Assembly: GCA_028277845.1 (NCBI GenBank)
Contig: JANQFL010000060.1
Location: 1-55,105, forward strand
Origin: Sneathiellales bacterium
Lineage (GTDB): Bacteria > Pseudomonadota > Alphaproteobacteria > JANQFL01
Length of the DNA: 55,105 bases
Direction: 5' to 3'
Shown here: positions 8,081 through 26,671 of the stretch, piece after piece
Numbering within the stretch: the stretch's first letter is position 1
Layout: every line of letters begins with the position of its first letter
Program-made: the position numbers and the translations under genes
Notes under the pieces: generated by a model
Told to the model about the DNA's origin: nothing
Databases searched by the model: none
Seen by the model: only the letters and a program-made list of their open reading frames with translations

Positions 8081-8122
8081 GGGTCTAGCCAGCTTTTTTC
8101 TGTGAGGACATGGGGGTATGCG

Positions 8123-8150
8123 GAAGGGGCGTCAGAAGAGACGCCCCTTC
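8123..8150 (-). terminator. intercistronic hairpin between livK and livH
   Basis: An 11-bp perfect stem (8123-8133 with 8140-8150), rich in G-C, with a 6-base loop, lies just after the livK stop. No T-run follows on the minus strand, so it is more likely a stabiliser of the livK message or an attenuator than a full terminator. Hairpins at this place are usual where a binding-protein gene precedes its permease genes. Confidence 0.5.
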
Positions 8151-8169
8151 GCAACGGGTCTGTTGGCCC

Positions 8170-9342
8170 TTACCAGGACATCTTGCAGTCTTTGGCGTAG
8201 GTGTCCTGATGGTTTTCGTAGACCGTGCTGACGATCTTGGTGGTGAACTTGCCTTCGGAATCCTTCACCACCTGACGCAGATAGAAGTTCTGGATCGGGA
8301 AGTGGTTGTTGCCGTAGGAGTACTTGCCACGGATCGAATCGAAGTTGGCCTGGCGCATGGCGGCGCGGATGCCGGCCCGGTTGCCGAGATCTCCGCTGAC
8401 GGCCTCGACGGCGCTCTTGATCAGCATGATCGTGTCGTAGGATTGCGCGGCGTAGAACGACGGGTAGGTGCCGTTCTTGGCCTTGAAGTCCGCGACGAAC
8501 TTCTTGTTGGCCGCGTTGTCCAGATCAGGTGCCCAGAACTGGGTCATCAGGCTGCCTTCCGCCAAGTCCTTGAGACGCGGCAGGCTGATCGAATCCACGG
8601 TGAACACCGTGTAGAGCGGAACCTGATCCTTCAAGCCGGCCTGCGAGTACTGTTTCATGAACTGGGCGCCGTGCTTGCCCGGATAGAAGACGAACAGCGC
8701 GTCGGGCTTGGCGGCGCGGACCTTGGCCAACTCGGCCGAGAAGTCCAGCTGGGCCGGGAACTTGGTCATATCCTGACCGGTGATGTTGCCCTTGAAGGTG
8801 CGCTTGACGCCGGCCACCATGTTCTTACCGGCCGCATAGTTCGGCGCCATGATGTACAGGTTCTTGATACCGCGCTGATTGAGCACTTCACCCATCGCCA
8901 TGGGAGTCTGGTCGTTCTGCCAGGAGGTCGAGAAGAAGTCCTTGTGGCAGAGCTTGCCGGCCAGCGGCGAGGGGCCTGCGTTCGAGCTGATGAGGAAAGT
9001 CTTGTTCTTCAGCGGCACGTTGCGCGACGCGAGCAGGACGTGCGACCAGATATAACCGGCGACGAAATCGACTTTGTCTTTCTTGACCAGTTTCTCGGTC
9101 TTTTGTTTGCCGATTTCCGGTTTGAAGCCATCATCCTCGTAAATGACCTCGACCTTCTTACCCGCCATCTCATGGCCAATGTGATCCAATGCCAATTCGA
9201 CGGCATTGCGCATGTCCTTACCGATGACGCCGGCGCCGGTCGTCAAGGTCGTGACAAATCCGATTTTCACAGAGTCCTGAGCGATGGCCGGAGACGCAAG
9301 AAGCGCCAGGGCAGAAGCCATCCCGATCAGCTTGAGTTTCAT
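8170..9342 (-). CDS. periplasmic substrate-binding protein of a liv-type ABC importer
   Basis: Protein of 390 residues with a signal peptide cut after residue 21 (ALLASPAIA before QD) and a type-I periplasmic binding fold (Peripl_BP_6). It captures the ligand for LivHMGF. The body (SVKIGFVTTLTTGAGVIGKD..., ALFVFYPGKHGAQFMKQY) is closer in feel to the aromatic-acid and small-carboxylate binders of this family than to E. coli LivJ; that is an impression and not a proof. Two cysteines (LCHKDFF and near the C-terminus, AKDCKMSW) could form a disulfide. It is first in the operon and carries a 334-base upstream region with a strong dyad. Leucine/isoleucine/valine, amides or aromatic acids are all possible ligands. 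Confidence 0.85.
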   Translation of the reverse strand: MKLKLIGMASALALLASPAIAQDSVKIGFVTTLTTGAGVIGKDMRNAVELALDHIGHEMAGKKVEVIYEDDGFKPEIGKQKTEKLVKKDKVDFVAGYIWSHVLLASRNVPLKNKTFLISSNAGPSPLAGKLCHKDFFSTSWQNDQTPMAMGEVLNQRGIKNLYIMAPNYAAGKNMVAGVKRTFKGNITGQDMTKFPAQLDFSAELAKVRAAKPDALFVFYPGKHGAQFMKQYSQAGLKDQVPLYTVFTVDSISLPRLKDLAEGSLMTQFWAPDLDNAANKKFVADFKAKNGTYPSFYAAQSYDTIMLIKSAVEAVSGDLGNRAGIRAAMRQANFDSIRGKYSYGNNHFPIQNFYLRQVVKDSEGKFTTKIVSTVYENHQDTYAKDCKMSW

Positions 9343-9676
9343 TGCAGTGTTCCTCCCATGGTGTCCGGCATTTGATCCCGGACGATTAAGCCGTGAAGCC
9401 CCTTCGGATAGTACTGAACCTTCAGTGAGAGCTAAACCCCCAATTCCCCTACGGATACTCGGGGCACTCCGAAGCCAAAAAAAGCAAGTTAAAATGTTTA
9501 GTTACCAAACATTTTATGCCTAAAATATCTTCGTCGGGTATGCAAGACAGTGCAAGAATTTTTTTACTGCGTGTTGGATTCGCCGGAATTCAGGCGATTA
9601 CCGACGGTTTTAAATCGGCAGGTTATGACCATAGGTAGCGTGACGATCCGCTGCCGCATCTTAAGGTGATCGGCGG
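9343..9676. promoter_or_regulatory. livK upstream region (334 bases, no gene)
   Basis: This gap between the start of livK and the stop of the bamE-like gene holds no convincing coding frame. It contains an imperfect hairpin near the livK start (arms GTCCGG/CCGGAC around 9362-9384), an AT-rich block at 9480-9560, and the long dyad annotated separately. The livK promoter must lie here on the minus strand, but I cannot fix its -35 and -10 with confidence. Confidence 0.5.
9490..9516. promoter_or_regulatory. long dyad upstream of livK, candidate repressor operator
   Basis: Arms of 10 bp (9490-9499 and 9507-9516) around a 7-base centre make a nearly complete dyad whose core is TGTTTAGTTACCAAACA. 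The core has the look of a TetR-family operator. It lies about 150 bases upstream of livK in the AT-rich part of the gap. The regulator is not encoded in the window. Confidence 0.4.
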
Positions 9677-19383: not shown

Positions 19384-19731
19384 ATGTCCGATATCGCTTC
19401 CGACGATCCGGTCTTCGTCTACGTCACCACGGACGGTTCGGACGAGGCATTCGCCATAGCCGAAGCCCTGGTGACCGATCAACTCGCCGCATGCGCCAAT
19501 ATCATTCCCGGCATGGCCTCCGTCTACCGCTGGCAAGGCGAAGTGCAACACGGTGAAGAGGCCGTGTTGATCGTCAAGACCCGGCAATCCCTGGTGCCCA
19601 GGATCACGTGGAGAATTCAGGACCTGCATAGCTACGACTGTCCCTGTGTCGTGGCGCTGCCCATTGCGGGCGGAAATCCTGAATTCCTGTCGTGGATATC
19701 CGAACAGACACAGCCCACCGGCCTGGCCTGA
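19384..19731 (+). CDS. cutA: CutA divalent-ion tolerance protein
   Basis: Trimeric ferredoxin-like protein of 115 residues. The conserved stretch AACANIIPGMASVYRWQGEVQHGEEAVLIVKT lies at about 36-67, and the core ends with LHSYDCPCVVALPI. The physiological role of CutA is uncertain despite its copper-tolerance name. It follows the PhyH gene by 35 bases. Confidence 0.93.
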   Translation: MSDIASDDPVFVYVTTDGSDEAFAIAEALVTDQLAACANIIPGMASVYRWQGEVQHGEEAVLIVKTRQSLVPRITWRIQDLHSYDCPCVVALPIAGGNPEFLSWISEQTQPTGLA

Positions 19732-19833: not shown

Positions 19834-20760
19834 GTGCGGAGAGTATTGACGATCGACGGTGGCGGCCATCAAGTCGGGTTTGCCGCGTCCTTTCTCTCTT
19901 CGATCGAAGCTTCCGAACGCATTCGTATCGCGGACTATTTCGACATCATCGCCGGTATCGGCAGCGGTGGCGTGTTGGCCATCGCATTGGGTCTCAACGT
20001 TCCGGCCAAGACCCTGATGGGTTGGGGGGCTCTGGACAGTACGACACACAACCCCGTCGCGGACAGTGATCCGACCGGGTCCGCCAGGCTCAATGAATTG
20101 CGGCGCATTCAAGCCGGAACGCTCAGCGATATCTTTCAAGGCAAGCAACTGTCCGACAGCGCGACCAGATTGCTCATTCCCGGTTACGACGACCAAGCCG
20201 GAGAAGTGATTGTCTTCGACAGTGAACCGGATGGCGCGGCTCCGTCGGCATCGGCGGCGGCCGTGGCGGCGGCCACATTGTCGGTCCCCACGGTCGACAC
20301 GGCCTATCCCGCGCGGCATTCTCCGGCCGCGACCATGGAATGCGCCGTGTCCAACAATCCTCTGGATATCGCCGTCACGCGCGCGTTCGGTCTGTGGGGA
20401 CAGGGTTCCGGCGGCCTCAAGTTTCTCAGTATCGGTAAACGCGTCGGTCATTCGGACGCGGCGCCCGAGCAGATGGCGCGCCATTCGATCATCCGGTCGC
20501 AGTCGCAGTTCGCGATGGAGTTGGCCCGCACGCTGGTGGGGTCGTCGAACGTGCTGCGCGTCGAATACAACGACCGGGACAAATCGGTACAGGCGTCCAA
20601 CGACCACCAGTGGCACGCGCTGGAAGTCGGCGAAGCCGAGGCAAATCGATTGATGCCGTTGCTGAAGGCGAATTACCTTGCCCGGCCGGTTGAACGGCCG
20701 CCGGCGTCGGCCACCGTGGTCAGGCTCGATTTCGACCGGGGTAGGAAACGGTCGGCCTGA
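19834..20760 (+). CDS. patatin-fold protein lacking the catalytic dyad
   Basis: Protein of about 308 residues with a patatin-like phospholipase fold. The glycine-rich oxyanion loop is kept (TIDGGGHQVGF at 6-16), but the nucleophile elbow, normally GTSTGG, reads GIGSGG at 41-46, with Gly43 in place of the serine. The DGG of the second motif is replaced: before the conserved NNP at 174-176 the sequence is Met168-Glu-Cys instead of Asp-Gly-Gly. Other family blocks remain (LSDSATRLLIPGYDD, ATLSVPTVDTAYPA, GLKFLSIGK). The start is the GTG at 19834 with a GGAAGAGGG ribosome site; a TTG at 19780 would add 18 residues. It should be non-hydrolytic, perhaps a lipid-binding or regulatory protein. The reading frame is intact and codon use resembles the neighbours. 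Confidence 0.8.
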   Translation: MRRVLTIDGGGHQVGFAASFLSSIEASERIRIADYFDIIAGIGSGGVLAIALGLNVPAKTLMGWGALDSTTHNPVADSDPTGSARLNELRRIQAGTLSDIFQGKQLSDSATRLLIPGYDDQAGEVIVFDSEPDGAAPSASAAAVAAATLSVPTVDTAYPARHSPAATMECAVSNNPLDIAVTRAFGLWGQGSGGLKFLSIGKRVGHSDAAPEQMARHSIIRSQSQFAMELARTLVGSSNVLRVEYNDRDKSVQASNDHQWHALEVGEAEANRLMPLLKANYLARPVERPPASATVVRLDFDRGRKRSA

Positions 20761-20874
20761 ACGGTTTGCGCCCTCCTGCATGGAAGCTTTGCGATTTCCG
20801 CAGATGACACTGCTGTCGCGCCCTGCGAGACTGTGCCGTAACAAGTTCAAGGAACAGTCGCACGGTACGATTTG

Positions 20875-22068
20875 ATGACGCCAACTCAACGCTGGTTGCC
20901 GCTGGCCTTCGGCAATGTCGCGCATACCTACACGCACCTGTTTACGTTGCTCTACGCGACGGTCGTGCTGGCTTTGGAGGCGGAGTGGGGCCTGAGCTAC
21001 TCCGAGCTGTTCGCCGTTTCGATCCCGGCCACCGTCATGTTGGGAGCGGGTGCCCTGCCGGCGGGCTGGCTCGGCGACAAGTGGGGCGCGAGCCAGATGA
21101 TGGCGGTGTTTTTCGTCGGTGTCGGCGCCGGAGCGGTCCTGACGGGCTTGATGAGTACGCCGTTCGGCATCGGTGTCGGTCTGGCGGTCATGGGCCTGTT
21201 TGCCTCGATCTACCATCCTGTCGGCATCCCCTGGCTGATTCGGCGGGCCACCAACAAGGGCCGGGCCCTCGGTATCAACGGCTTGTTCGGCAGCGGCGGC
21301 ACCGCGGGCGCCGCCATTGTGTCAGGCTTTCTGGTCGACTATTTCGGTTGGCGCTCGGCCTTCATCATCCCCGGAACGATTGCCTTGCTGACCGGGGCCG
21401 CGTTTCTGTTCGCGATGCAACTGGGATACATTCCCCGCGGCAAACCGGTCCCCAAGGAAGTATCGCGCACGGAAACGGCCGATTTCAGGCGGGTTTTGAC
21501 GACTTTGGCCGTTACGGTGCTGTGTACCGGGTTGATTTACCAGTCCACGGCATTTGCGTTGCCCAAAATGTTCAGCGAACGGCTGTCGTCCTGGTCCGGT
21601 GACGGCATTATGGGAATCGGCGGTATGGTGACCGTCTGTTATCTCGTGGCGGCGTTTTCGCAGATCGTTGCCGGCGAGCTGGCGGACCGGTTTCGGCTGC
21701 GCAGCGTCTATCTGGCCGCCCAGATTTCGCAGCTCCCGGTCATTCTGCTCGCCTTCGGCCTGCACAATCCCGCCCTGATCCCGGCCGCCGCCATGATGAT
21801 CAGCCTCAATGTCGCCGGCCAACCCGCCGAAAACGCCATCCTGGCCAAATATACGCCCGATCATTGGCGGGGACGGGTGTTTGGCGCCAAATTTATCCTG
21901 ACGTTCGGGGTCAGCACCCTCGGTGTGACCATGATTCCGGTGGTGCATGCCCTGACCGGCAGCCTTGAGTTCGTTTACATCATGCTGGCCGCCTTTGCCG
22001 CGACGGCGGGCCTGGCCGCCTTTATGCTGCCGCGTGAGCCCCACCGCCGGGCCGTCGCCGCCGAGTAG
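20875..22068 (+). CDS. MFS transporter
   Basis: Twelve-helix major facilitator of 397 residues. The loop 2-3 motif is [13 protein letters not shown] at about 63-75. The fold starts directly with [21 protein letters not shown], which resembles the fosmidomycin-resistance/nitrate-type branch, but the substrate cannot be told. The ATG at 20875 is used; the preceding TTG is in frame. The 114 bases upstream have no clear signal. Confidence 0.85.
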
Positions 22069-25468: not shown

Positions 25469-26245
25469 CTATACCGCTTCGGATAGCTCGCACCAGATCG
25501 GCGTATGGTCGGATGCCTTGGGCTTACCGCGTGGGCCACGATCGATTTCACAACCGACCAAACGATCGGCGGCCCGTGGCGAAAGCAGCAAATGGTCGAT
25601 CCGCACGCCATTGTCCTTTTGCCATGCACCGCGCTGATAATCCCAGTAGGTGTAAGCGATGACGGAAGGGTGCAGCGCGCGGTAGGCTTCCGTCAATCCG
25701 AGATTGAGCAGGGCGCGGAACCGGTTGCGGGATTCCGGTTGGCACAACGCGTCGTCCGAAAATCCCTGGGGGTCGAAGCAGTCTTCATCACGCGGGCAGA
25801 CATTGTAGTCACCGCCCAACACAAAACACTCTTCCGCCTCAAGCAGACCCCTGGCCCGTTCAATCAGCCGGTTCATCCATCCCAGTTTGTAGGGAAACTT
25901 TTCGCTGTCGATGGGGTTGCCGTTGGGCAGGTAAATCGTCGCCACACGCACGCCGTCGACCGTCGCCTCCAGGTAACGCGCTTGTTCATCCGTCTCGTCA
26001 CCGGGCAGGCCCGCCATCGTGTCTTCGATCGGCCGTTTCGAGAGGATGGCGACACCGTTGTAGGTTTTCTGGCCGTGGATGGCCACGTTGTAGCCCAAGT
26101 CTTCGATTTCCAGACTCGGAAACGTCTCGTCCGTGGATTTGGTTTCCTGAAGCAAGATGACGTCGGGTCCGGCTTCACCAAGATATTCCAGGACGCGAGG
26201 CAGGCGGGCTTTGATCGAATTGACGTTCCAGGTGGCGATTTTCAC
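25469..26245 (-). CDS. xthA: exodeoxyribonuclease III
   Basis: Endonuclease/exonuclease-fold DNA repair enzyme of 258 residues for abasic sites. The catalytic residues are visible as Asn7 (WNVNS), Glu34 (LLQETK), the DYN motif in GGDYNVCPRDEDCFD and the final SDHTPI. The length is normal. It lies 72 bases downstream of erpA but behind a terminator. Confidence 0.94.
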   Translation of the reverse strand: MKIATWNVNSIKARLPRVLEYLGEAGPDVILLQETKSTDETFPSLEIEDLGYNVAIHGQKTYNGVAILSKRPIEDTMAGLPGDETDEQARYLEATVDGVRVATIYLPNGNPIDSEKFPYKLGWMNRLIERARGLLEAEECFVLGGDYNVCPRDEDCFDPQGFSDDALCQPESRNRFRALLNLGLTEAYRALHPSVIAYTYWDYQRGAWQKDNGVRIDHLLLSPRAADRLVGCEIDRGPRGKPKASDHTPIWCELSEAV

Positions 26246-26260
26246 AGGGGCGTTTCTCCG

Positions 26261-26290
26261 GCAAACAAAAACCCGGCACGTGGCCGGGTT
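26261..26290 (-). terminator. intrinsic terminator of erpA
   Basis: A perfect 8-bp stem AACCCGGC/GCCGGGTT (26270-26277 with 26283-26290) with a 5-base loop, followed on the minus strand by TTTTTGTTTG. It lies 28 bases after the erpA stop and separates it from xthA. Confidence 0.8.
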
Positions 26291-26317
26291 CCGTTCATAC
26301 CATGCCCGGAGCGGTGC

Positions 26318-26671
26318 TTACACGGAAAACGATGAGCCGCAGCCGCACTGCGCCGTCGCATTCGGGTTCTTGATTTGGAACGATGCGCCGATCAGGTCTT
26401 CGACGAAATCGATCTCGGCGCCACCCATGTAGAGCAACGACATGGAATCGACCAACACGGTGACCCCATCCTTTTCGATTACCAAGTCGTCTTCGCTACG
26501 CGTGTCATCGAAACTGAATCCGTATTGAAAACCCGAGCATCCGCCGCCCGATATCGAGACGCGCAACATGAGGTTATCGTCATCCTCGTCCTTGAGGATT
26601 TCTGCAATCCGCTTCGCGGCGCTATCCGACAGGGATACCAAAGGCTTGTCGGTCGTGGCGGTTTCCGTCAT
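26318..26671 (-). CDS. erpA: iron-sulfur cluster insertion protein ErpA
   Basis: A-type Fe-S carrier of 117 residues that delivers clusters to apoproteins. The three ligand cysteines are Cys45 (GGGCSGFQY), Cys109 and Cys111 (CGCGSSF). The start at 26671 gives the normal length. It is divergent from dgt with 128 bases between, an arrangement widespread in alphaproteobacteria. Confidence 0.93.

Follow-up and report, generated by a model that had tools for sequence, protein, structure and literature searches.

A CapV-like patatin-fold protein that has lost its catalytic serine and aspartate in a Sneathiellales bacterium

Introduction

The described proteins closest to the one analysed here are CapV, the cGAMP-activated phospholipase with which the anti-phage defence system CBASS cuts membranes (NCBIfam NF041079; PDB 8zr9, 9jeh, 9kh6), and CapE, described as an activated phospholipase of CBASS that responds to cUMP-AMP (PDB 9iom, 9ion). 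V. cholerae CapV carrying the S62A mutation has no phospholipase activity (PMC12802263). In the E. coli variant CapV Q329R, the S64A mutation leaves the motility and filamentation phenotype in place and the R27A and D197A mutations relieve it; in addition, D197A lowers the binding of cGAMP by E. coli CapV (PMC9095652).

We analysed a gene, referred to below as pseudo-CapV, that lies in a stretch of 55,105 nucleotides from a Sneathiellales bacterium (the window) and that an earlier note had described as encoding a protein of patatin fold that lacks both catalytic residues. To our knowledge, bacterial pseudoenzymes that arose from immune effectors are sparsely documented, and in our search of the literature we met no account of a patatin-type CBASS effector that is catalytically dead.

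Results

The pseudo-CapV reading frame is open and intact over all of its 308 codons, exactly as the earlier note had given it (Table 1). Its synonymous codon usage (0.284 bits/codon) is like that of the neighbouring genes with a Pfam match (0.155-0.469 bits/codon), and only 1 of 2000 shuffles that preserved codon-position composition was free of stop codons. Because of this neighbour-like codon usage and the rarity of stop-free shuffles, we regard the frame as a genuine, host-adapted coding sequence and not as a chance frame, in keeping with the earlier description of an intact, normally composed gene. A consensus scan, which is a weak test, detected no sigma-70-like promoter for it. Elsewhere in the window, two other long open reading frames (25505-26335 and 8110-9375, both on the + strand) had no Pfam match at E 0.001, and the former, whose codon usage is untypical (-0.004 bits/codon), may be foreign or not a gene.

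Table 1. Coordinates of pseudo-CapV, its motifs and its flanking genes in the window
Feature	Position	Strand	Remark
CutA	19384..19731	+	Upstream flank of the junction; Pfam PF03091
pseudo-CapV ORF	19834..20760	+	308 aa; GTG start codon, aligned with the start positions of relatives
Degenerate oxyanion loop DGGGHQV	19855..19875	+	Family form GGGx[K/R]G; motif definition from PMC9095652
Nucleophile elbow GIGSGG	19954..19971	+	Catalytic Ser replaced by Gly43, codon 19960-19962
DSEPD	20218..20232	+	Stands where the CapV-clade KTxHH belongs, by alignment
MECAVSNNP	20335..20361	+	Stands where [I/V]DGGxxANNP belongs; catalytic Asp lost, NNP kept
MFS transporter	20872..22068	+	Downstream flank; in relatives usually directly after CutA

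The NCBIfam model for the CBASS cGAMP-activated phospholipase, NF041079, matched pseudo-CapV with E = 1.4e-17 at 63.9 bits, which is far below its curated cut-off of 200 bits, and the match to Pfam Patatin (16.4 bits) was likewise under the cut-off of that model. A PADLOC match to CBASS Effector Phospholipase (7.3e-23) is unspecific when taken alone, because further patatins, among them those of Cytophagales, are matched by the PADLOC models too. The best sequence matches in the PDB were patatin entries of the CBASS cGAMP-activated phospholipase kind, and the nearest relatives of pseudo-CapV are less than 30% identical to it. In a tree of 104 rows built by a quick method, pseudo-CapV was placed inside the CapV clade together with CapV proteins of its class and of plasmids (fork support 86); no other branch is as long as its own (2.74). 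Sequence comparison thus assigns pseudo-CapV to the CapV clade of CBASS cGAMP-activated phospholipases, an assignment that is to be read with its long branch and the quick tree in mind. The two proteins share, besides this clade, their length, the register of their starts, the DGGG, FDxIxG and NNP motifs and the C-terminal helices. The earlier note had recognised the patatin fold and missed this kinship with the CBASS effector CapV, to which the NF041079 match points.

Unlike CapV, pseudo-CapV lacks the catalytic Ser, the catalytic Asp, the K/R-G pair of the oxyanion motif and the KTxHH motif. The oxyanion loop, which had been thought to be preserved, is kept only in part: DGGG is present at residues 8-11, but in the sequence GGGHQV the K/R is replaced by Gln13 and the following Gly by Val14, so that only GGG is left of GGGx[K/R]G. 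The patatin nucleophile elbow GxSxG has become GIGSGG (residues 41-46), with Gly43 in a column that holds Ser in 101/106 distinct relatives of a profile alignment and Gly in the remaining 5/106, which are Cytophagales proteins retrieved by searching specifically for this substitution and hence give no measure of how frequent Ser-to-Gly is. In place of the catalytic Asp of the patatin DG[A/G] motif, pseudo-CapV has MECAV before the NNP (MECAVSNNP, residues 168-176). The residue in the Asp column is Glu169 by the profile alignment, in which 105/106 relatives have Asp, and Met168 by MAFFT on eight sequences; as judged from either alignment the catalytic Asp is absent, and both an Asp-to-Glu and an Asp-to-Met change are possible. 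Both substitutions reported in the earlier note were confirmed in this way, and the combined loss of Ser and Asp is, within this alignment, far from the family background.

The KTxHH motif, a clade feature that we derived in the present analysis and that has no curated definition, was found in 13 of the 18 CapV-clade rows and in none of the 85 other rows. We also scored the 59 columns whose residue is shared by 12 or more of 13 CapV-clade rows; of these columns pseudo-CapV has kept 34 and lost 25. The lost columns include G14, T42-S43-T44, Y69, G73, I76-F77, K129-T130, H132-H133, D136, A150-A151 and D169-G170-G171-W172-A173; most of the losses belong to the elbow, the Y..G..IF block, KTxHH or the Asp loop. 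Positions that remain are the glycines of the core, F36-D37, N174-N175-P176 and L198-S199-G201; compared with seven relatives of its class, pseudo-CapV has kept D8-G11, F36-D37, G41, G45-G46 and N174-N175-P176. This pattern, which is descriptive, was recognised post hoc and has no null model behind it, suggests that the active-site side has decayed more than the core.

The patatin fold itself is kept. An AlphaFold2 model computed from an alignment with 28 relatives (pLDDT 76.8, pTM 0.80) had its best structural matches among CBASS lipase/CapV entries (9kh6, 9kh7, 9jeh, 9kej; Z 26-28), on which it superposed over nearly its whole length with an rmsd of about 3 A over 257-275 residues. The next matches were CapE, patatin and iPLA2beta; for patatin and CapV structures taken together, Z was 25-28. 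CapE (Z 23-26) has the same patatin fold and is more distant from pseudo-CapV in sequence. The model and these matches, together with the alignment of 106 relatives, support the description of a protein that has the patatin fold and lacks the Ser-Asp dyad. Because the Asp-loop region of the model (residues 153-171) has a pLDDT below 50, the geometry of a dyad is not readable from it.

The genes around pseudo-CapV are, in order, M1 aminopeptidase, PhyH-like dioxygenase, CutA, pseudo-CapV, MFS transporter and IlvD. The best matches of IlvD came from Skermanella, Tistrella and Sinorhizobium, which points to an alphaproteobacterial affinity. Among genomes of the class, we found CutA and the related MFS gene in 17, on one strand in each case, and in 15 of these the gap between them is 9-443 bp, compared with 1147 bp here. 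Since this gap is short in so many genomes of the class, pseudo-CapV is most simply read as a lineage-specific insertion. The CutA-MFS junction showed no repeats that would mark a mobile element. The two other loci with wide gaps contain a second MFS copy (L030) and an RTX-like gene in the opposite orientation (L039). The L039 gap, at about 1.2 kb, raises the possibility that the junction is a recurrent insertion point.

In the relatives L172, L173 and L175 the lipase gene adjoins an oligonucleotide cyclase, and in the plasmid relatives L140 and L141 an annotated nucleotidyltransferase stands beside it. Pseudo-CapV differs from CapV in this respect also: no cyclase adjoins it, and the genome, which is 98.5% complete, gave no match to SMODS or PDLC00780. 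Besides pseudo-CapV the genome has only two clear patatins, L018 and L019, which are of a type unlike CapV; as no cyclase was found either, we rejected a role for pseudo-CapV as a regulator of a resident active CapV.

We found no orthologue of pseudo-CapV in searches with its own peptides of an 84,980-species collection and of viral contigs, in 385 genomes of its class and 398 of its phylum, in phages (tblastn), or by synteny among the relatives of the MFS gene. A search of plasmids returned no orthologue and only canonical CapV at no more than 32% identity. A scan of genome contigs for the pattern YFDxIxGxGxGG retrieved, apart from the Cytophagales clade, just two proteins, both unrelated. 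As the order of the source organism is represented by one genome in the searched collection, the missing orthologues may reflect sampling.

Discussion

We think it probable, if with some reservation, that pseudo-CapV is an orphaned, non-hydrolytic pseudoenzyme derived from CapV that persists as a folded protein. In the sequence of events that we propose, a CapV gene would have entered the CutA-MFS junction in the lineage of the window, would have lost its cyclase or never brought one along, and would have lost hydrolysis. Unable to cut lipids, its product would be harmless and could persist in a folded, non-hydrolytic form. Judging from the substituted motifs, lipase activity should probably be absent, and binding of cGAMP is probably impaired, because E. 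coli CapV binds less of it when the equivalent Asp is mutated; any response to cGAMP would probably be weak. The likeliest remaining activity may be self-association, or a CapV-type binding of membrane or ligand without catalysis. The CapV Q329R variant of E. coli is a precedent for an effect of CapV on cells that is independent of Ser (PMC9095652), but that effect depends on the Arg and Asp motifs, both of which pseudo-CapV lacks.

The idea that the protein has been kept for another role, as the earlier note proposed, is plausible and short of demonstration, because there is no second copy in which selection could be tested. That note had itself named a lack of orthologues with the same changes as counting against its proposal, and we found none, although this may be a matter of sampling; for the specific roles that it suggested, lipid sensing or scaffolding, no specific support was found. 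If pseudo-CapV has been kept for a role, it would exemplify how an effector that is toxic in defence can become a host protein without toxicity. One such role would be that of a domesticated chromosomal decoy, which would bind the cyclic nucleotide, or join the oligomers of incoming CapV as a dead subunit, and so protect the cell from toxic CBASS effectors on mobile elements, but we consider this improbable.

A decaying relic without function is in our judgement possible and less probable than persistence as a folded pseudoenzyme; under this reading, selection ceased once the toxic effector had been inactivated, and the frame stays open for no other reason than that a stop or frameshift has still to become fixed. 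The failure to find an orthologue in any collection searched, the longest branch in the tree, the loss of 25 of 59 clade-conserved columns, the genome in which no cyclase was found and, as a weak point, the promoter scan are all consistent with decay. Neutral drift, however, rarely leaves a frame intact, and pseudo-CapV combines less than 30% identity to its nearest relatives with an open frame and normal codon usage; its losses, moreover, lie mainly at active-site motifs and the core positions stay. The argument from the intact frame is weakened in turn if much of the divergence predates the loss of catalysis, as it may. It is very improbable that pseudo-CapV is still a hydrolase using Ser44 or another Ser with Glu169 as a shifted dyad, even though Ser44 adjoins the nucleophile position and Glu169 occupies the Asp column of the profile alignment. 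The elbow residue is Gly, and the oxyanion K/R-G and the glycines of DGG are lost as well; a shifted elbow would read I-G-S-G-G, with Ile at a position where a nucleophile elbow expects a small residue. Single changes of Ser or Asp in CapV, furthermore, abolish activity or lower ligand binding (PMC12802263, PMC9095652). That sequencing or assembly errors have altered an ordinary active CapV is hardly credible: the genome is a draft of 124 contigs, but such errors would have to explain the losses of Ser, Asp, K/R-G and KTxHH all at once, as several independent motif losses without a frameshift and with normal codon usage. The preferred interpretation of a folded pseudoenzyme carries a caution for annotation, in that matches to CBASS-lipase models can be dead orphans.

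The patatins of the Cytophagales clade (L053, L055, L056, L057, L059), with the elbow G[ST]G[ST]GG, resemble pseudo-CapV in that the nucleophile Ser is replaced by Gly. They differ from it in keeping the DGG Asp and the GGGxR Arg, in forming a separate clade (support 98), and in that the change is common to several species. These nucleophile-less proteins (L053:4167-5207, L055, L056:2916-3953, L057:5870-6937 and L059) are conserved in their lineage, so that selection on them, unlike selection on pseudo-CapV, can be tested.
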